Below are positions 26,692-35,199 of a stretch of 35,581 nt of DNA, one piece after another. The notes under the pieces were generated by a model that saw only the letters and a list, made by a program, of their open reading frames with translations, ran no database searches and was not told the origin of the DNA. The DNA is taken from contig JAFTDL010000075.1 of the NCBI GenBank assembly GCA_017454215.1, forward strand, positions 1 through 35,581, in the 5' to 3' direction. The DNA comes from Lentisphaeria bacterium (lineage in GTDB: Bacteria > Verrucomicrobiota > Lentisphaeria > Victivallales > Victivallaceae). The translations under genes and the position numbers were made by a program. Position 1 is the stretch's first letter. The number at the start of each line of letters is the position of its first letter.

Positions 26692-26738
26692 ATATCAGGC
26701 GGACCGCCTAATATAGCGTCCCGGCGCCGTTTATTCAA
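26692..26738 (-). promoter_or_regulatory. Promoter and palindromic operator of the GH36 gene
   Basis: On the minus strand TTGAAT (26733-26738) and TATATT (26710-26715) are 17 bases apart; the -35 box overlaps the stop region of the ceramidase-like gene. Directly after the -10 box lies the perfect palindrome AGGCGGACCGCCT (26697-26709). With ATAT on both sides it becomes 23 bases with one mismatched pair. A repressor there would block the start site. Confidence 0.6.
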
Positions 26739-28089
26739 GGAGCGCGGAAGCGATCTCGCGGTATTTGCGCAAGATGAGAGAGGCCGTCTTCATGGAGTAG
26801 GGATTCGACCGGGGGGCGTCCTCGTAGCCGCCGCGGCCGTAATTCCAGGCGTTGGGAATGTAGCCGCTTTCGTTGGTGTACGTGCCCGTTCCGTCGGCCA
26901 GCGCCGTGATCATGCAGCAGCGCCCGGCAAAGATATCCTTTCTCACGGCGAGCCCGATCTCGGTGAAGGGTTCGCTGGGCAGCGAAGCGAGAACGAAGGA
27001 GTTCCCGAAGGCGATCCCGGTGAGATACAGACACATATCCTCCTTGCGCGACGCCTTTTCCAGCAGGGCCGAAGCGAAATACTTGAGCACCGCGGGCACG
27101 CCTCTGACCAGATCTTCGCTGGTGAAGGTGCGCGAATCGATATCCTCGTCGGGATAGAGGGCGACCGTTTTTTTCGCCTCCTCGATCTCCGCCTGCGGGA
27201 TCTCGCGGGGAGGCGTGACCACCGTTCCCGAGAGAACAGTCATGCTCTCTCCGGCAACGGGGACAAGACCGTCCAGCGCGGCGCGGACCGTCTCCGCGTA
27301 GCCGCTTCCCAGACGTTCGGCCTCGGCGTAGGAGTTCTGCCTGTCGGCGCTGGACACGTCGAAGTGATTGATGTTGCCTTCGGCGCCGATGAGGGGGCAG
27401 ACCATGGAGCCCGGCCCCAGCTCCTTCTCGAGGATGCGCCGCAGAAATCCCGGCCAGTCGGCGGAGACGCCGGTCCCGCCGATGGTGTCCGAGTGGTTGA
27501 CGATGCTGGAAAGCAGAAGTTTTATTTTCCCCCCGCACTTCACCGCCAGCAGGGGGATCTCGGGGTCGATCTCCCCCTCGGGACGGACGATGTCGCTGTT
27601 GAGTTTGCCCGGATTGGTCCTGACTTTGCCGTCTTTCATCCAAAATCTGCGGTTGAAGAGGAAACGGCTGTCCGCGGTGAGCCCCTGAAAGAGTTCGCCC
27701 TCCCGCAAATTCCCCGCGGCCTCGGCCAGAGCCTCCGTCGCCTGCCGGACGAGGAACGGGATGTAGTCGGGGTTGAACCCCTTCTGGCGTGAACGCACTT
27801 CGGGGGCCGTGTGGGTGTGGATCGCCGCCATGGTCACGTTCCGGCGGCCGAACTGCGTCAGTCCGGCCCGCCGGATGCTTTCGAGAAGCGCGTCGCAGAG
27901 ATAAAGCGGCATGCAGACGAGATCGAAGTGCAGTATCGCGGCGGCTTCGGTCCCCTTTTTGAACACGACCGCGCGGACTTCGATGTCGTCCAGCACATGA
28001 TCCCACATGCGCACGTTGAAATATCCCGCCAGAGACACGGGGACCTGCGGATCGATGCAGCGGCGGGCGGTCCCGAATTCGATCTTCAT
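26731..28089 (-). CDS. Neutral/alkaline ceramidase-like hydrolase domain protein
   Basis: This 452-residue protein resembles the N-terminal domain of neutral ceramidases (PF04734). GTARRCIDPQVPVSLAGYF is the family start. AAIHTHTAPEV (His91, His93) and SIVNHSDTIGG (His) match zinc ligands, and GAEGNINHFDVSS matches the catalytic-loop region, where Pseudomonas-type enzymes carry a GDVSPN-like sequence. Bacterial relatives in carbohydrate clusters are numerous and their substrates are mostly unknown, so ceramide cleavage should not be assumed. No signal peptide is seen, unlike true secreted ceramidases. Its start overlaps the previous stop by four bases (ATGA). Confidence 0.75.
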   Translation of the reverse strand: MKIEFGTARRCIDPQVPVSLAGYFNVRMWDHVLDDIEVRAVVFKKGTEAAAILHFDLVCMPLYLCDALLESIRRAGLTQFGRRNVTMAAIHTHTAPEVRSRQKGFNPDYIPFLVRQATEALAEAAGNLREGELFQGLTADSRFLFNRRFWMKDGKVRTNPGKLNSDIVRPEGEIDPEIPLLAVKCGGKIKLLLSSIVNHSDTIGGTGVSADWPGFLRRILEKELGPGSMVCPLIGAEGNINHFDVSSADRQNSYAEAERLGSGYAETVRAALDGLVPVAGESMTVLSGTVVTPPREIPQAEIEEAKKTVALYPDEDIDSRTFTSEDLVRGVPAVLKYFASALLEKASRKEDMCLYLTGIAFGNSFVLASLPSEPFTEIGLAVRKDIFAGRCCMITALADGTGTYTNESGYIPNAWNYGRGGYEDAPRSNPYSMKTASLILRKYREIASALLE

Positions 28090-28559
28090 TTCGCTTCCCT
28101 GCCCTCTTCACTGGCCGTGACGCTTGATTTCCTGCCCGACGACGCCGGGTAGATCACGCTCCGGCAGCAGGGCTTTCTATGGTCGATGATGTCGTACTGC
28201 GCCACGTAGCCGGCCTTTTCGAGGACGGGTATGACCCAGCCGGGGCAGTGGTTGCAGTAACTGTAGCAGGGAGAAGCGTCGTTGTCGAGGACCTTGCTCA
28301 GGCTGGGGCACTTTTTCATGCGTTTGACGAGACAGTCTTCGTGCAGTTCCAGCTCCAGCTCGCAGTTTTCCTCGAAGCGGATGTGGTCCCAGTACTCGTA
28401 CATGCCCTTGAGGCCCTTCTCTTTGAAGAGGGCCAGCGTGTGCATCTCCTGATGTTCGCTGACGGACTTGTAATAGGCCTGCATTTCCCCGGGAGGCAGG
28501 GTCTCGAGAAATTTGAAAAGTTCGTTGTAGAAGCGCACGAAGTGGTCGCTGGGGATCAT
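28086..28559 (-). CDS. Small Cys-rich protein resembling L-2-amino-thiazoline-4-carboxylate hydrolase (copy 2)
   Basis: This 157-residue protein has a helical N-terminal half and a Cys-rich C-terminal half: RMKKCPSLSKVL, CYSYCNHCPGW (Cys98, 102, 105) and KPCCRSVIYP. The order CP, then a Cys cluster, then a late Cys before a beta strand resembles PF14196, named after an enzyme that opens a thiazoline ring in L-cysteine formation; most members have no known role. The C-terminal 20 residues are polar and probably disordered. AGGAG lies before the ATG, three bases after the upstream stop, and the 3' end overlaps the ceramidase-like gene. Confidence 0.5.
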   Translation of the reverse strand: MIPSDHFVRFYNELFKFLETLPPGEMQAYYKSVSEHQEMHTLALFKEKGLKGMYEYWDHIRFEENCELELELHEDCLVKRMKKCPSLSKVLDNDASPCYSYCNHCPGWVIPVLEKAGYVAQYDIIDHRKPCCRSVIYPASSGRKSSVTASEEGREAK

Positions 28560-28562
28560 GGT

Positions 28563-29003
28563 TCACTTCTCCTTTCTGAAGATCTGCACACAATGGTCGT
28601 CGCCGACGTGTTCCACGGAGCTGGTCCAGCCCGTACCCTCGCACATGCCCGCGTTGACTTCTTCCGTCTGCAGACAGTTGATGGGCTCCACGGGCAGGCC
28701 CAGATGCCGCAGATGCCGGTGGGCGGGGCACTCGAAGACCTCGAAACGGATCTCGTCCGCCGTGACTTTGAGGTCGAATTCGGCCCCTTCCCGGTGATAG
28801 AACCACACCAGATGCTCCAGCAGTTCCGACGGGTCGTTCTTCGCCAGTTTTTCGCGGATGGACCTGTAGACGTCATGTCCCGTGCGGCGGAGTATCTCTT
28901 TGATCTTCTCCTCGCCGTAGCGCCCGGCAAAGTACCGGATGGCGCTGTCGGTGTTGCCGTGAAAATCACGGTGCAGTTCGTTGTTTTCCTGATAACGCAG
29001 CAT
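28563..29003 (-). CDS. Small protein resembling L-2-amino-thiazoline-4-carboxylate hydrolase (copy 1)
   Basis: This 146-residue protein starts MLRYQENNELHRDFHG and is preceded by AAGGAG. The C-terminal half carries EVFECPAHRHLRHLG (Cys92), PINC (Cys110), AGMCEGTGW (Cys121) and EHVGDDHCVQIF (Cys138). This fits the PF14196 pattern of CP, a middle Cys and a final GD-x-C strand. It shares that plan, though little direct sequence, with the next gene, so the two are probably distant paralogues that may pair. No signal peptide or membrane segment is seen. The gene lies between the aldolase-family gene and its partner with short gaps. Confidence 0.55.
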   Translation of the reverse strand: MLRYQENNELHRDFHGNTDSAIRYFAGRYGEEKIKEILRRTGHDVYRSIREKLAKNDPSELLEHLVWFYHREGAEFDLKVTADEIRFEVFECPAHRHLRHLGLPVEPINCLQTEEVNAGMCEGTGWTSSVEHVGDDHCVQIFRKEK

Positions 29004-29020
29004 GGGATGTCTCCTTTTCT

Positions 29021-29920
29021 TCAGTCCAACTGCTCTCTGAATCTGTCGAGGCACGCTTCGATCCGGGCGCGGACCTCCGCCGAAAGGGTATCCATCTCCT
29101 GCGCAATGGTGAAGGGCGACGCGATCAGTCCCAGTTTGCAGAGCGCGTATTTCTGCCCGGTCTGGACCGTGGAGAGGTCTCTTCCGTAAACGCCGTGGAA
29201 GACCCGGATCATATCGTTCTGCACGGCGCGGGCTCCGGCAGGATCCCCCTGTTCGCAGCAGTCCGCCAGACGGCGCATCATTTTGGAGCAGAGCGCGCCC
29301 ATGCCGCAGATCATGCCGTCGCATCCGGCGAAAAGCGCCTCGTCGGCGGCCCATTCCTGCCCCTCGAAAAGCAGTGTTTCGTATCCCTTTTCGGCTTTCA
29401 GCAGCAGGAGTTCCCGCCGGAGCCACATGTTGGAGGCCGAATTCTTGATGCCCTTCAGATTTTCGTGGCCCATGATCGTCTCGAACTGCCCGAGAGAAAG
29501 ATTGATGTTGTTGTTGGGCGGGCAGTGGTAGTACCAGACCGGGCGGTCCGCCGCGTCCAGCACCCGCAGGATCGATCTCACGGGATCCAGCTTCGACGTC
29601 TTTCCGGGCAGCATGAAGACATAGGCGTCGAAATCGTACTTCCGGTAGCTTTTCATGATCTCGAGAGAAAGAGGCAAACTGGTGGCGTTGATCCCCACGA
29701 GAAGCTGTGTTCTGCCGCCGATGCAGTGCGAAGCGTACTCCACGGCTTCCTCCTTGAAGCGGTCGGAGAAACTTCCCCACTCGCCCATGGAACCGAAGAG
29801 AAAAACGCCGTCGATGCCGTGGCGGATGTTGCGTTCGAAGATGCTGCTCAAGCCCGTCCTGTCGAGACTGCCGTTCTCCAGAAGGGGCGTTACCGTGGCG
29901 CTGATGACCTGTTTTTTCAT
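29021..29920 (-). CDS. Dihydrodipicolinate synthase/N-acetylneuraminate lyase-family aldolase
   Basis: This 299-residue protein has the usual length for the DapA/NanA superfamily. The start is placed at MKKQVISATVTPLLENG; the open frame upstream lies inside the previous gene. GSMGEWGSFS is the substrate-carboxylate loop (GTTGE in DapA), WYYHCPPNNN holds the catalytic Tyr region and LKGIKNSASN the Schiff-base Lys159. Members form or split 2-keto acids, for example pyruvate plus an aldehyde. The context of glycosidases suggests a sugar-acid or sialic-acid-like substrate, not lysine synthesis, but this is inference. Confidence 0.85.
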   Translation of the reverse strand: MKKQVISATVTPLLENGSLDRTGLSSIFERNIRHGIDGVFLFGSMGEWGSFSDRFKEEAVEYASHCIGGRTQLLVGINATSLPLSLEIMKSYRKYDFDAYVFMLPGKTSKLDPVRSILRVLDAADRPVWYYHCPPNNNINLSLGQFETIMGHENLKGIKNSASNMWLRRELLLLKAEKGYETLLFEGQEWAADEALFAGCDGMICGMGALCSKMMRRLADCCEQGDPAGARAVQNDMIRVFHGVYGRDLSTVQTGQKYALCKLGLIASPFTIAQEMDTLSAEVRARIEACLDRFREQLD

Positions 29921-29940: not shown

Positions 29941-31119
29941 TCAACGTTTTGCTTCCGCATCCCGCCGGGCCAGCCACGCCTTCAGGGTGCAGTAGAGCGT
30001 ATCGCCCATCTGATCGTATCCGGCCTTGGCGGGGTGAACTCCGTTGTTCTGACGCACGGTCAGGGCGGGATTGCCCTCGTTGACCGGCTCCCTGATCGTC
30101 GGATAATTGTTTTCCGTGTCGATGTTGATGTAGACGGGAACGAGGTTGAATTTGAGTTCTTTGCTCTTTTTGAGCAGCGCGCGGTTGTAGCAGTCCAGAT
30201 TCTTGCGGTACTGCCAGCCGGTCCTGCGGCTGGCGTAGCTCTTGCCGAAGCCGTCCTGCCCCGCACCCGGAATGTGCTGGAACACGAAGATCGCCGGTGC
30301 AGGATCGAGCTCCCGGAATTTCGCGATCAGTTTCTCCATGTTGTCCGTCGATTTTTTCGTGATCCCGGAGATCGTTTCATCGGTGGCGAGGAAAAAATCG
30401 TTCAGCCCCAGCTGAAAACTCACCGCGTCCGGCGCTTTGCCGCCGTTGTTGATCTCGAAATATTTTTTGAGATCGAACACGCCCTTCCCGTTCCGGTCCG
30501 GAAAGAGGAAGGGACTGTTGAAGTTGAGCGGACGGTTCGGGTGCATGCCGTCGTTTTTGGCGTCTCCGGCGTACCCCCAGCGGGTCAGGAACGAATCCCA
30601 GCGCCAGCCGCCGTAGCCCTCGTGTCTGCCGGGGCCTTTGCCGCGGGCCCCGATGCGCGTTCCGATGCTGACGAATTCGGGGTTGCCCGGCCGCTGCATC
30701 AGCTCGGCCACGCGGTTGGGATAAAATCCCTGACGCGTCTGGCTGGCGACGACGATCAGCAGGGAAAAACGCCGCCCCTTTCCGGCGTCTTCCGGCACGA
30801 CCACCAGTTCGGATTCGGCTTCGGCGACCGTGCCGGACTCGCCGATGACGGTGATCTTCCATTTCCAGGCGCCGACGTCCTCTTTCTTCGGCGTGAAACG
30901 CCACCTTTTGAGATCGTTCCGCCCCTTCTCGCAATCCACGTCGAACACATAATTGGCCGGATTGATCACGGTGACGATGTTGTTGAAGTAAACATTCATC
31001 TCCACGCCCGGCACGGCGTAGATCTTTTCGGGCACCAGCAGACGCACGTCCGCGGCGGAGAGCACCTCCGCCAGCAGAAACAGAGCGATGACCGATGCGC
31101 AGTTTCCGAATCTTTTCAT
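29941..31119 (-). CDS. Secreted SGNH/GDSL-like protein with an N-terminal beta domain
   Basis: This 392-residue protein has a signal peptide (MKRFGNCASVIALFLLAEVLSA). A beta domain at about 25-115 is followed by an SGNH-like fold: FSLLIVVASQTRQG (Ser126 as nucleophile candidate), GYGGWRWDSFL, SFQLGLNDFF (block III Asn) and NNGVHPAKAGYDQMG (block V His). Two usual residues differ: the GD before the Ser is VA, and the Asp three residues before the His is Asn. SGNH members in glycan clusters are often acetyl or sugar esterases; activity here is uncertain. GGAG precedes the start at 31119, and a weak GGCCG/CGGCC hairpin lies in the gap upstream. Confidence 0.75.
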   Translation of the reverse strand: MKRFGNCASVIALFLLAEVLSAADVRLLVPEKIYAVPGVEMNVYFNNIVTVINPANYVFDVDCEKGRNDLKRWRFTPKKEDVGAWKWKITVIGESGTVAEAESELVVVPEDAGKGRRFSLLIVVASQTRQGFYPNRVAELMQRPGNPEFVSIGTRIGARGKGPGRHEGYGGWRWDSFLTRWGYAGDAKNDGMHPNRPLNFNSPFLFPDRNGKGVFDLKKYFEINNGGKAPDAVSFQLGLNDFFLATDETISGITKKSTDNMEKLIAKFRELDPAPAIFVFQHIPGAGQDGFGKSYASRRTGWQYRKNLDCYNRALLKKSKELKFNLVPVYINIDTENNYPTIREPVNEGNPALTVRQNNGVHPAKAGYDQMGDTLYCTLKAWLARRDAEAKR

Positions 31120-31164: not shown

Positions 31165-33741
31165 TCACGAAAACGCCACTTCGACCCGGGTGATCCGCGG
31201 CGTCCGCAGGGAGTTGACCGCGCCGAGGGCCAGCCGGTACTGGACGAAGTCGCCCGCGGAACAGCGGATCTCTTCCGGTTTCCGCCACGGCGCGCCGGAG
31301 AGTTCTCCGGCACTGCGGGCGCGGCGCATCAGGACGCCGACCCACGTTTTTGGAGGGATCTCCGCTTCGAGAGAGACCCGGCATCCGGCGCAGCCGGGAT
31401 CGACCCGGTACGGTTCCGACGTGTAGAACTCCTCGGGGCCCCGGTCGAGCATGTTCCCCGGCTGGATCGTCGTCATGCCGTGGGGACCGTTGGTGGGCAG
31501 TCTGGTGCAGCGCTCCTCATTGAATCCGTCGGGACCGTTCCACCAGACGGCGGACCAGCCTTTGTGGTCCCCGTCGATCTTGTGGTTGGCCACCGCCAGA
31601 TCGACGAATCCGTCCTCGTTGAAGTCGCAGGCCACCGCCCCCGAAGCCGAGTGCGTGAAGAGCATCTTGCGGTCGAGATTGCTGAAGTGCCCCTTGCGGT
31701 TCCAGTACAGGAACGAGTGGATGTCCCGGTCCTTGCCGCCGTGGTAACTGCCGGCGAAGATGTCCAGCCAGCCGTCGTTGTTGAAGTCGGCCACGGCGAA
31801 GGAGTCGGCGGCGTCGCCCCGCAGCATGCATTTGCGGGCCTCGCTGAGCCCCTCCGGGCCGTTCCAGTAGATGTAGACGTAACTGTGGTGAGGCTGGCGC
31901 GGAATGAGGTCGCCGTCTCTGGGCGTTTCGGTGTGGCCTCCGATGATGAGGTCGGGATAGCCGTTTTTGGTGAGGTCCGCCGCCGTCGCCGCCAGTCCGC
32001 GGTAGGTGGCAAGTTCGAAGGAGCGTTCAAGTGAAAATCCCTCCGGCCCGCCCCGCAGGACCAGCGTGCGCCCCGCGCCCTGCGGCGCGACGATGTCCAG
32101 ATAACCGTTGTTGTCCAGATCCGCCGCGCAGAGCCAGCGCAGGGAATTTTTGGAGTTGACCTCGATGGTGTCGTAACTTGCGAAATCGTCTTTGCCGTAG
32201 AAAATGCGCAGATCGTTCCAGTGGTTGCACGGCGTGACGATCTCGAGGTAGCCGTCGTGGTTGAAATCCCCGGCGACGACGCCCCAGCCGATGTCGGTTT
32301 TGAGCGTGCGCGTTTTCTCCGGCTCGAAACCGCCGGGGCCGAAGTGGTGCAGATGGTGGCCGGGGTCCAGATGCAGGGAGTTTTCGGAGTTGTTCCCCAC
32401 CAGCAGTTCCGGCCAGCCGTCGTCGTCCAGATCGGCGCAGAGGGAGTCCACCGCGCACCACGAGGGCACGGCCGTCATGCGCTCGGGAGAGTATCCTTCG
32501 GCGCTGCCGTGATAGATGAAAGTCCTGTCGTACCCCACCGTGCTGCGCGAAAAGTGGTTGACGAGAAAAACCTCCGGCGGACGGCCGGGATTGCGGACGG
32601 GAAAGACTCTCCTCGTGTCCTCGCCCGCAAAGCGGTGCAAAATCTTTCCGTCGGGACCGCAGAGCAGCGTCTCGCAGCGGTAGACCGAAGAGTTGCCGTT
32701 GGAGGCAAAGAAGATCCCCTCGGGGGAGATCGCCGCGTCCGAAGCGGCGGGAGTGTCCACGGCCGCCCGGGAGCCGTCTTTGCGCACGATGAAACTTACC
32801 GGACGCGCGGCGACGGCCAGGATCCCCCTCGCGTCGTCGTACGCCGCGGCCAGAGCGCCGGGCAGAACGGTTTCGCCGCACCTTGTCACCTGACGGCCGC
32901 GGGCTTCGAAAAACAGGACCTTTTCCCCGGTGCACCAGGCAAGTTCCGTCCGGCCGCCGCGCACGACGGCGCGGATCTGCGGAAACACCTGGATCTTGCG
33001 CTCGGTGTTGCTTTCAAGGGTGCCGCACTCGGGAGGACGCCGTATTTCGCATTCTCCGGGGAGCGGAACGGCGCTGACGTTTTCCACCCGTATCCCCTCG
33101 GGCCCGCCCCAGTAGACGGACGCCGAGGAAAAATCCGACCGCACGGCGACGAGTTCGTCGAACCCGTCCCCGTCGAGATCGGCGGAGATCACCTGATCGG
33201 CAAAAATGGGCAGATCGACGTACCCGGCCCACTCGAAGCCGACCTCTGTCTGATAAAATATGCGCACGTTCCTGTACACCGGCTGGGCGAAGGCCAGCGC
33301 AAGTTTCCCGCCCGTGAAACGCCCGGCGCAGACGCTCTCGGCCCAGGGGGTCGGGATCCGGATGTGCCGGTCTTCGGAATAGGGTTCCTGCGAACCGAAA
33401 TAAATGTCGGTGGAGGCGAAGGGAGAGACCATGTCGTACCGGCCGCAGACTACAAGATCGGTGTATCCCCGGTCGTAAAGGTCGGCGGCAAGTCCGGCGA
33501 TGCTCCCCTGCCCCGGCAGGGCGGTGCAGTTGTCCTCCATGTCCCAGAGAAAACTCGGCGCGGACTCGTGATGATTCTGACAGTTGGCGAAAACCAGATC
33601 GAAATAACCGTCGCGGTCGAGGTCGTACTGAAAAATGCGCTGCAGGACGCCTTTGCGCGAAACGTAGAGATTCTGTCCGCCGCAGCCGAACACGCCCCGG
33701 CGGAAAGCTTCGAAACCTTCTGTGATCCAGACGTTTTTCAT
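31165..33741 (-). CDS. Large FG-GAP/VCBS repeat propeller protein
   Basis: This 858-residue protein has at least eight calcium-type loops: DLDRDGYFDLV, DLDGDGFDELV, DLDDDGWPELL, DFNHDGYLEIV, DLDNNGYLDIV, DLTKNGYPDLI, DFNNDGWLDIF and DFNEDGFVDLA. They are spaced as in FG-GAP beta-propellers, and the length allows two propellers. Each blade tends to end in GGPEG or NGPEG. The last 100 residues form another beta domain. FG-GAP proteins are usually extracellular and bind ligands, but no signal peptide is visible: the start MKNVWITEGFEAF is polar. The ribosome-binding site before the ATG at 33741 is weak. Function unknown; glycan binding is an inference. Confidence 0.75.
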   Translation of the reverse strand: MKNVWITEGFEAFRRGVFGCGGQNLYVSRKGVLQRIFQYDLDRDGYFDLVFANCQNHHESAPSFLWDMEDNCTALPGQGSIAGLAADLYDRGYTDLVVCGRYDMVSPFASTDIYFGSQEPYSEDRHIRIPTPWAESVCAGRFTGGKLALAFAQPVYRNVRIFYQTEVGFEWAGYVDLPIFADQVISADLDGDGFDELVAVRSDFSSASVYWGGPEGIRVENVSAVPLPGECEIRRPPECGTLESNTERKIQVFPQIRAVVRGGRTELAWCTGEKVLFFEARGRQVTRCGETVLPGALAAAYDDARGILAVAARPVSFIVRKDGSRAAVDTPAASDAAISPEGIFFASNGNSSVYRCETLLCGPDGKILHRFAGEDTRRVFPVRNPGRPPEVFLVNHFSRSTVGYDRTFIYHGSAEGYSPERMTAVPSWCAVDSLCADLDDDGWPELLVGNNSENSLHLDPGHHLHHFGPGGFEPEKTRTLKTDIGWGVVAGDFNHDGYLEIVTPCNHWNDLRIFYGKDDFASYDTIEVNSKNSLRWLCAADLDNNGYLDIVAPQGAGRTLVLRGGPEGFSLERSFELATYRGLAATAADLTKNGYPDLIIGGHTETPRDGDLIPRQPHHSYVYIYWNGPEGLSEARKCMLRGDAADSFAVADFNNDGWLDIFAGSYHGGKDRDIHSFLYWNRKGHFSNLDRKMLFTHSASGAVACDFNEDGFVDLAVANHKIDGDHKGWSAVWWNGPDGFNEERCTRLPTNGPHGMTTIQPGNMLDRGPEEFYTSEPYRVDPGCAGCRVSLEAEIPPKTWVGVLMRRARSAGELSGAPWRKPEEIRCSAGDFVQYRLALGAVNSLRTPRITRVEVAFS

Positions 33742-33750
33742 CGGCGCTTC

Positions 33751-35199
33751 TCAGATGTCCATGTAAAGGCTCGTCACATTCGAGAAGGTCACGACTTCGG
33801 TGACGCCGTCGTGGAGCCACGATCGGGGGATGACCACCGGTCCGGGACCCGACGTTTCGTGACCGTTGACGAGGATCTTCCCCTGCGCATCGGTGAAGAG
33901 TCTGCCGTCGCCCGCGGGAGCCTTGCCGATGCGCAGACGCCAGAGGGTCTCGCCCGAAGCGGGGAAAACCCCCGCAGGCAGTTTATGAGTCTTGAGCCAG
34001 TTCTCGTAATAGCCCGGAATGCGGTTGCACTGATCGAGATCCCCGAGATGGATCTCGCAGTCGTCCCAGCCGGGATGGACGCGGCGCGGCAGGGAGGTCA
34101 CCAGATCCGGATCCTGCACCTCGTTGAAGATCTGCCGCCCCTTGGCGATACAGGCCAGCTGTTCGGAGGGATCGACGCCCTTCTTCAGTAGATCGGAGGA
34201 AAGGGGCGGCCGCAGCATTTTCATGCAGTTGAAGACCTGAAGTCCGTCGGCGCCGCTCCAGTAGGCTCCGGCGGCCAGTCCCCGGGCGTCCTCGGGCGTG
34301 ATGACCGCGCCCCGGTACTTCACTTCGCGCCGCCAGCCCTCTTCGAGGGTGACGATCACGGGCAGTTTTCCCACGATGGTCCGCCACTTTTCGACCGGCA
34401 CGTCGAAGTTGCCGCCGCAGCCGAAGTTGCCGACGAAGAGGTGCGAAAGCACCCCGGCCTCGACCCAGCTTTTGACGTCCAGCCCCAGCTTGAGGGCCGA
34501 TTCGGGCGTGACGGGCACGCGGCAGGCGAAGGGCTGTCCCAGACGGTCTCGCAGTTTTTTGAGCATGTCGGTGATGAGGTGCGCCCGATCCGGACCGGTC
34601 TCGCGGGGCAGATGGGCGGGCCAGCGCATCCAGTCGAGCAAAACGTTGTCGGGTTCGTACTTTTCGAAGGCCTCGACGATGAAGTCGCTGTACATGTCGC
34701 GGACGCACTGATGAGAGTAATCGAACCCGTTCTCGCAGGGAATGTCCCCGGGAATGCGCAACTCCGGGTGCTCGCGCCAGAAATCCGTATGGATCGAAGA
34801 GTTCTCGTCGTGCCCGTTGTGCATGTCGTTCATGCGCACGTCGATCCACGCGCCCATGCCCAGCCCGCGGGCGCCCGCCAGCAGATAGGCGTTGGAGTCG
34901 ATGCCCTGTGCCTCCAGCACCGCCATGTTGGCGCGGCGGCGGAAGGACCAGTGGCGTGCGTCGCCCCGCAGGGCCTTCTGATAGGGTCCCTGCAGGATGT
35001 CGAAGCCGTCCAGATAGCTCTGGAACACCCGGCTCCGGTAGTTGGCGATCTGGGCGTTGACCCCCACGAGGTAGACGCCGACGCCGGTCTTGCCCAGGTT
35101 CTCCAGAATGGCGTCGAGATCGAATTTCGTCATCGTCCCGGCCTCGAACTGATAGAACCGGGCGTCGCTGTCTTCGTCGAAATAAAGTGTGCGCATCAT
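33751..35199 (-). CDS. TIM-barrel glycosidase-like protein (GHL10-like)
   Basis: This 482-residue protein has a barrel start GVGVYLVGVNAQIANYRS. GMGAWIDVRMNDMHNG, FDYSHQCVRDMYSDF and DNVLLDWMRWP follow; the last matches the DGIxLDxxRxP strand of hypothetical glycosyl hydrolase 10-like proteins, whose Asp is catalytic in relatives. VIVTLEEGW may give a Glu. A small beta domain closes the protein (ETLWRLRIGKAPAG, VVTFSNVTSLYMDI). No signal peptide is seen. GGAG lies ahead of the double ATG at 35194-35199, nine bases after the GH16 stop. Substrate unknown. Confidence 0.65.
   Translation of the reverse strand: MMRTLYFDEDSDARFYQFEAGTMTKFDLDAILENLGKTGVGVYLVGVNAQIANYRSRVFQSYLDGFDILQGPYQKALRGDARHWSFRRRANMAVLEAQGIDSNAYLLAGARGLGMGAWIDVRMNDMHNGHDENSSIHTDFWREHPELRIPGDIPCENGFDYSHQCVRDMYSDFIVEAFEKYEPDNVLLDWMRWPAHLPRETGPDRAHLITDMLKKLRDRLGQPFACRVPVTPESALKLGLDVKSWVEAGVLSHLFVGNFGCGGNFDVPVEKWRTIVGKLPVIVTLEEGWRREVKYRGAVITPEDARGLAAGAYWSGADGLQVFNCMKMLRPPLSSDLLKKGVDPSEQLACIAKGRQIFNEVQDPDLVTSLPRRVHPGWDDCEIHLGDLDQCNRIPGYYENWLKTHKLPAGVFPASGETLWRLRIGKAPAGDGRLFTDAQGKILVNGHETSGPGPVVIPRSWLHDGVTEVVTFSNVTSLYMDI

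Follow-up and report, generated by a model that had tools for sequence, protein, structure and literature searches.

In the 35,581-nucleotide stretch of DNA analysed here (the window; Lentisphaeria bacterium, assembly GCA_017454215.1, contig JAFTDL010000075.1, positions 1 to 35,581), two adjacent minus-strand genes, here named S1 (28563..29003, 146 amino acids) and S2 (28086..28559, 157 amino acids), encode a widespread and unnamed pair of paralogous proteins of predicted V4R fold that is tied to operons of sialic-acid-type aldolases. Together with the gene of a class-I pyruvate aldolase of the DHDPS/NanA family (29021..29920, minus strand, 299 amino acids), they form the real unit of this locus, aldolase-S1-S2. 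We propose, with a probability of about 0.4, that S1 and S2 are an obligate heterodimer acting as an accessory metalloenzyme of a sialic-acid-type (2-keto-3-deoxy sugar acid) pathway, where they would open or hydrolyse the cyclic substrate of the aldolase. No Pfam or NCBIfam model matches either protein above its cut-off, yet the pair recurs in several phyla and in many gut and rumen bacteria. A role of this kind would supply a new component for the bacterial use of sialic-acid-like sugars and account for many unassigned genes of Lentisphaerota and Kiritimatiellota, and the pair would be a prokaryotic instance of paired V4R subunits, a pattern known from the TRAPP heterodimers.

A preliminary description of the locus had treated the aldolase, S1, S2 and a ceramidase-like hydrolase (26731..28089, minus strand, 452 amino acids) as one module. 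Its account of the four genes, their strand and their spacing (17 bases between the aldolase and S1, 3 bases between S1 and S2 and a 4-base overlap of S2 with the ceramidase-like gene) agrees with ours in every respect. The same four open reading frames were chosen, all with high scores (aldolase 94, S1 61, S2 67, ceramidase-like 148), by a purpose-written gene caller based on codon usage, which replaced a longest-frame map swamped by antisense frames in this GC-rich DNA, and AGGAG-type ribosome sites were seen on inspection upstream of S1 and of S2. The set also occurs beyond its own genome, so that one condition under which the description would have fallen does not apply. What did not hold is the module of four as a unit, which was rejected. 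In the gene maps of 102 loci, the operon-like run of S1-S2 includes an aldolase at 49 loci at least, a short-chain dehydrogenase/reductase (SDR) at 20, a BNR protein at 15, an aldo/keto reductase (AKR) at 11, an SSF symporter at 11, a ceramidase-like gene at 7, a YhcH domain at 4 and NeuB at 3, all of these being minimum figures, since genes with an overlap above 60 bases are lost in the calling (for example the aldolase of locus L061) and many contigs are short. The ceramidase-like gene, present at 7 of the 102 loci and with relatives mostly on other contigs, is thus optional.

The scarcity of the ceramidase-like gene is what one would expect if the four genes were neighbours by chance, without any functional unit; this explanation is strongly disfavoured for aldolase-S1-S2, and we give it almost no weight, since S1 and S2 are paired across several phyla and their linkage to the aldolase lies far above chance. 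In the order to which the genome belongs, an aldolase of the PF00701 type adjoins S1-S2 or lies near it at 40 of 49 loci, and four of the six PF00701 genes of the own genome stand at S1-S2 loci (hypergeometric estimate 6e-7). Of the 137 genomes examined in the order, 33 have an aldolase of the window type (E <= 1e-40), and S1-S2 accompanies it in 25 of these 33 as against 13 of the 104 others. The co-occurrence table (25 genomes with both, 8 with the aldolase only, 13 with the pair only and 91 with neither) leads to a Fisher p of 1.7e-11, uncorrected for relatedness.

The association of S1 with S2 is closer still. In the order (Victivallales), 38 of the 137 genomes have S2 and 37 have S1, frequently in several copies, and over all loci read S2 follows S1 directly in 87 of 92 cases, the commonest spacing being an overlap of four bases (gap -4, in 51); of the five exceptions, most are close to contig ends. 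A scan with one genome per species recovered relatives of S1 in Lentisphaeria, Kiritimatiellae, other Verrucomicrobia, Phycisphaerae, another planctomycete, Armatimonadetes, one Clostridia bin and several Devosia, which include cultured strains and make S1-S2 testable in culture. Searching 388 genomes of the phylum with profiles brought in a more distant branch (E 1e-15 to 1e-26), and here too the two genes are mostly adjacent. A Devosia S2 searched against plasmids gave no match. At nine loci (L085, L082, L086, L092, L093, L100, L104, L105 and L120), S2 is duplicated next to a single S1, in the order S1-S2-S2' and once as three tandem copies.

S1 and S2 are, on the evidence of their profiles, ancient paralogues, because the two profiles align over 141 columns (probability 97.2%, E 3.5e-11, distant homologues included) with the shared cysteines and glutamate superposed (C92 on C84, C110 on C102, C138 on C132 and E72 on E64); with close homologues alone the comparison is weak (10.8%). 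The possibility that the twin small proteins belong to unrelated families, which would have undone the earlier interpretation, is thereby set aside. In S2, the residues Y11, F15, E64, C84, S86, Y101, C102, H104, C105 and C132 are invariant in 110 of 110 sequences, and in the alignment of S1 the positions E72, C92, C110 and C138 are near-invariant. At two distant loci (L222 and L229), S1 lacks two or more of its conserved cysteines while S2 retains all four, and we infer from this that S2 would be the metal-bearing subunit. In the proposed mechanism, the metal site would be built from C84, C102, C105 and C132 of S2, perhaps with E64 and H104, and S1 would serve as the partner. The heterodimer with a cysteine-bound metal, put forward in the preliminary description, remains a good reading of two related proteins that are nearly always paired and keep their cysteines.

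The same description had placed both small proteins near PF14196, the ATC hydrolase family, and this membership could not be upheld: S1 scores 18.6 bits, under the curated cut-off of 28.1, and S2 had no match in the Pfam profile scan. Among the S1 members, 23 of 44 match PF14196 at E <= 1 (best 2.9e-4), and the best S2 member gives E 0.11. PF14196 is nevertheless related to S1-S2, though the cut-off is missed; the Cys pattern is similar, and the difference lies in the essentially unmatched S2 and in a sugar-acid rather than a thiazoline context. The V4R family PF02830 is absent from the listed profile matches of S1 and S2 at E <= 1, the NCBIfam scan gave no name to S1, S2 or the ceramidase-like protein, and a profile search of the PDB with S1 returned designed repeat proteins and other weak matches that were judged spurious. 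In the literature on PF14196 and ATC hydrolase, nothing on the S1-S2 pair was found.

The AlphaFold2 models of S1 and S2 are confident, with predicted local distance difference test (pLDDT) scores of 92.5 and 90.7, and their helices and strands follow one another in a similar order. The top Foldseek matches of S1 are mouse and human Bet3 (1wc8, E 5.9e-4; 1sz7, E 8.4e-4) and that of S2 is the Bet3-Trs31 heterodimer (2j3r, E 4.3e-3); further matches include BcsD, YslB and H-NOX, with the MopR sensor among those of S2, and the TM-scores are moderate, about 0.46-0.59. These models predict for both proteins the alpha-beta fold of V4R and TRAPP-Bet3, which is a fold assignment and not proof of close kinship. 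A survey has linked the V4R, HNOB and ATC hydrolase domains and described a conserved cysteine cluster in V4R and ATC hydrolase (PMC5847659), the V4R domain of DmpR binds zinc through Cys151, Glu172, Cys177 and Cys185 (PMC7264223), and V4R has been proposed as the ancestor of the TRAPP subunits (PMC2253512). The predicted fold, the TRAPP habit of forming heterodimers and Cys and Glu residues like those through which V4R sensors bind zinc are the points of likeness to V4R and TRAPP-Bet3 proteins such as DmpR, MopR and Bet3; S1-S2 differ in having no Pfam V4R match and another Cys spacing, and in being stand-alone paired paralogues within sugar-acid operons.

Since V4R domains are mainly known as ligand-binding regulatory modules (PMC2253512, PMC7264223) and the MopR sensor appears among the fold matches of S2, S1-S2 could instead be a ligand-binding sensor that reports pathway intermediates to a regulator or an enzyme, as V4R does in DmpR and MopR. 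We consider this distinctly unlikely: S1-S2 carry neither a DNA-binding nor an ATPase domain, separate FadR, AraC or GntR regulators are present at many loci, and the only fusion observed is to an enzyme domain, that of YhcH.

This fusion occurs in Kiritimatiellae, where the C-terminus of S2 continues into a YhcH/YjgK/YiaL domain (81.4 bits against a cut-off of 45.5; PF04074, 101 against 26.5) at L176:2012-2983, L180:10450-11418, L187 and L237:5970-6938. The YhcH protein of E. coli is a zinc anomerase that provides the aldolase NanA with opened N-acetylneuraminic acid from the cyclic form, and the authors of that work anticipate more such helpers (PMC8141875). Because of the YhcH fusion, the linkage to the aldolase and the probable Cys-metal site, a ring-opening or ring-hydrolysing role is the best single guess for S1-S2, by analogy with YhcH/NanQ (PF04074, NF040884), likewise a small metalloprotein feeding a NanA-type aldolase, to which S1-S2 are unrelated in fold and sequence. 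Neighbouring glycosidase-like proteins would release sugars and an SSF or ATP-binding cassette (ABC) transporter would import them; S1-S2 would then open or hydrolyse the cyclic keto-sugar acid (or an amino-sugar partner thereof), the aldolase would cleave the opened acid to pyruvate and an aldehyde, and the SDR and aldo/keto reductase enzymes of many loci would process its products. Both the position of S1-S2 in this pathway and, above all, the exact reaction, the least certain element, are put forward tentatively. The sharper version, in which S1-S2 are an undescribed metalloenzyme of two V4R-fold subunits whose task is to open cyclic keto-sugar acids for NanA-type aldolases, as a second solution unrelated to YhcH, appears unlikely; if true, it would place an enzyme within a fold known chiefly for ligand sensing and vesicle tethering.

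The assignment of the aldolase to the DapA/NanA family, made earlier, is borne out by PF00701 (104 bits, cut-off 22.1), and the positions of the catalytic Tyr and of the Schiff-base Lys are kept in the motifs WYY and GIK. It differs from N-acetylneuraminate lyase and DapA in carrying GQEW where the motif GxDE of the lyase stands (active-site type GSMGE / Y / K / EGQEW) and in missing the equivalog cut-offs of nanA (64.2 bits against 382) and dapA (91.9 against 206.15). A separate DapA-like gene, scoring 304 bits to PF00701, is located on contig C119 of the own genome. Further neighbours of S1-S2 are in agreement with sialic-acid-type sugars: sialidase-like BNR proteins and SSF symporters, a NagA-like deacetylase in Devosia, kelch proteins resembling NanM together with a RenBP-family gene in the distant branch, and at L078 a NeuB above its cut-off (469.9 against 399.65) that starts 12 bases after S2. 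Next to S1-S2 of some Kiritimatiellae (L156:2984-4792 and relatives) stand proteins of about 600 amino acids in which an SSF symporter domain spans residues 142-544 and some 140 additional amino acids form an N-terminal region.

Several observations weigh against the ring-opening role or limit it. Three active-site types are found among the aldolases at S1-S2 loci, namely that of the window (GQEW and relatives), a second with GDEF and relatives, and GADE, the type of N-acetylneuraminate lyase, which makes one shared substrate unlikely. Eight genomes carry an aldolase of the window type without S1-S2, for example the nearly complete G125 with an SSF-aldolase-AKR-SDR order, so the aldolase can function without the pair and its strict dependence on S1-S2 was rejected; S1-S2 are strongly linked and not required, as is expected of an accessory enzyme or of a step needed for some substrates only. 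No aldolase was seen at the Devosia loci; there the neighbours of S1-S2 are an SDR, an ABC transporter of peptide type and, at some loci, the NagA-like deacetylase. Most genomes of the order have a YhcH at another site, and a missing anomerase is therefore not obvious. The BNR proteins need not be sialidases, and the link to NeuB may reflect a single transferred cluster. Among the loci with S1-S2 near NeuB (L077, L078 and L080), L077 and L080 also have PseF-like cytidylyltransferases, and their S2 proteins look near-identical at the N-terminus across distant genera, which suggests transfer; L080, which also holds FabH-like and acyl-carrier-like genes, resembles a cluster for surface polysaccharide. 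At L240, L244 and L245, an aldolase of the window type stands with an SDR and without S1-S2 (Gfo/Idh-type genes being present in L240 and L244), which may represent another form of the pathway.

The NanA and NeuB contexts share N-acetylmannosamine, and most genomes of the order lack a true NanE, so that S1-S2 might interconvert N-acetylmannosamine and N-acetylglucosamine in place of NanE or RenBP. Such an epimerase is very improbable, both enzymes being able to co-occur with the pair: in L225 a RenBP-family gene is found within a few genes of S1-S2, and NanE is also present in three S1-S2 genomes. The SDR and AKR genes raise another possibility, that S1-S2 are a hydrolase or lyase with a step of their own in an oxidative route (SDR, ring hydrolysis, aldolase, AKR), like a lactonase or an ATC hydrolase, instead of delivering opened substrate to the aldolase. 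The frequency of SDR and AKR (at 24 and 13 of the 102 loci), an SDR directly upstream of S1 at several Devosia loci and a remote resemblance between S1 and ATC hydrolase, an enzyme cleaving a thiazoline ring (PMC5847659), speak for it, while the missed Pfam cut-off, the aldolase-SDR-AKR order without S1-S2 at L243 and the lack of a known substrate common to all contexts speak against it, and we regard it as possible though rather unlikely.

The ceramidase-like protein weakly and partially matches the N-terminal part of neutral ceramidase (PF04734, 20.2 bits, below the cut-off of 32.1), and is shorter, with no match to the C-terminal domain. The HTHT, NH, PSE and GGYE columns are conserved in eight relatives and may correspond to the His, His, Glu and Tyr zinc ligands of neutral ceramidase; a zinc amidase-type site seems likely. 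Relatives are found in 71 of the 137 genomes of the order, mostly on contigs other than those of S1-S2; in a bin of Verrucomicrobia (L138), however, aldolase-S1-S2 has an orthologue of 53.6% identity beside it on the opposite strand, and the loci L078, L104, L105, L177 and L226 hold more distant relatives. The protein may be an optional amide-hydrolase-like partner, which would act on acylated forms of the sugars.

The transcript probably starts upstream of the aldolase and includes three further minus-strand genes, which encode an uncharacterised protein of 482 amino acids (33751..35199, no Pfam match), an FG-GAP repeat protein of 858 amino acids (31165..33741; PF13517, 114.6 bits) and a GDSL-type acylhydrolase-like protein (29941..31119; PF13472/PF00657). 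The gaps are 9 bases between the first two, 45 bases before the GDSL gene and 20 bases before the aldolase, and this order is retained in the closest relative, genome G102 (L061). Homologues of the FG-GAP protein lie close to the corresponding aldolase at L061 and L069. The uncharacterised protein, with relatives at 11 S1-S2 loci, is possibly a glycoside-hydrolase-like barrel.

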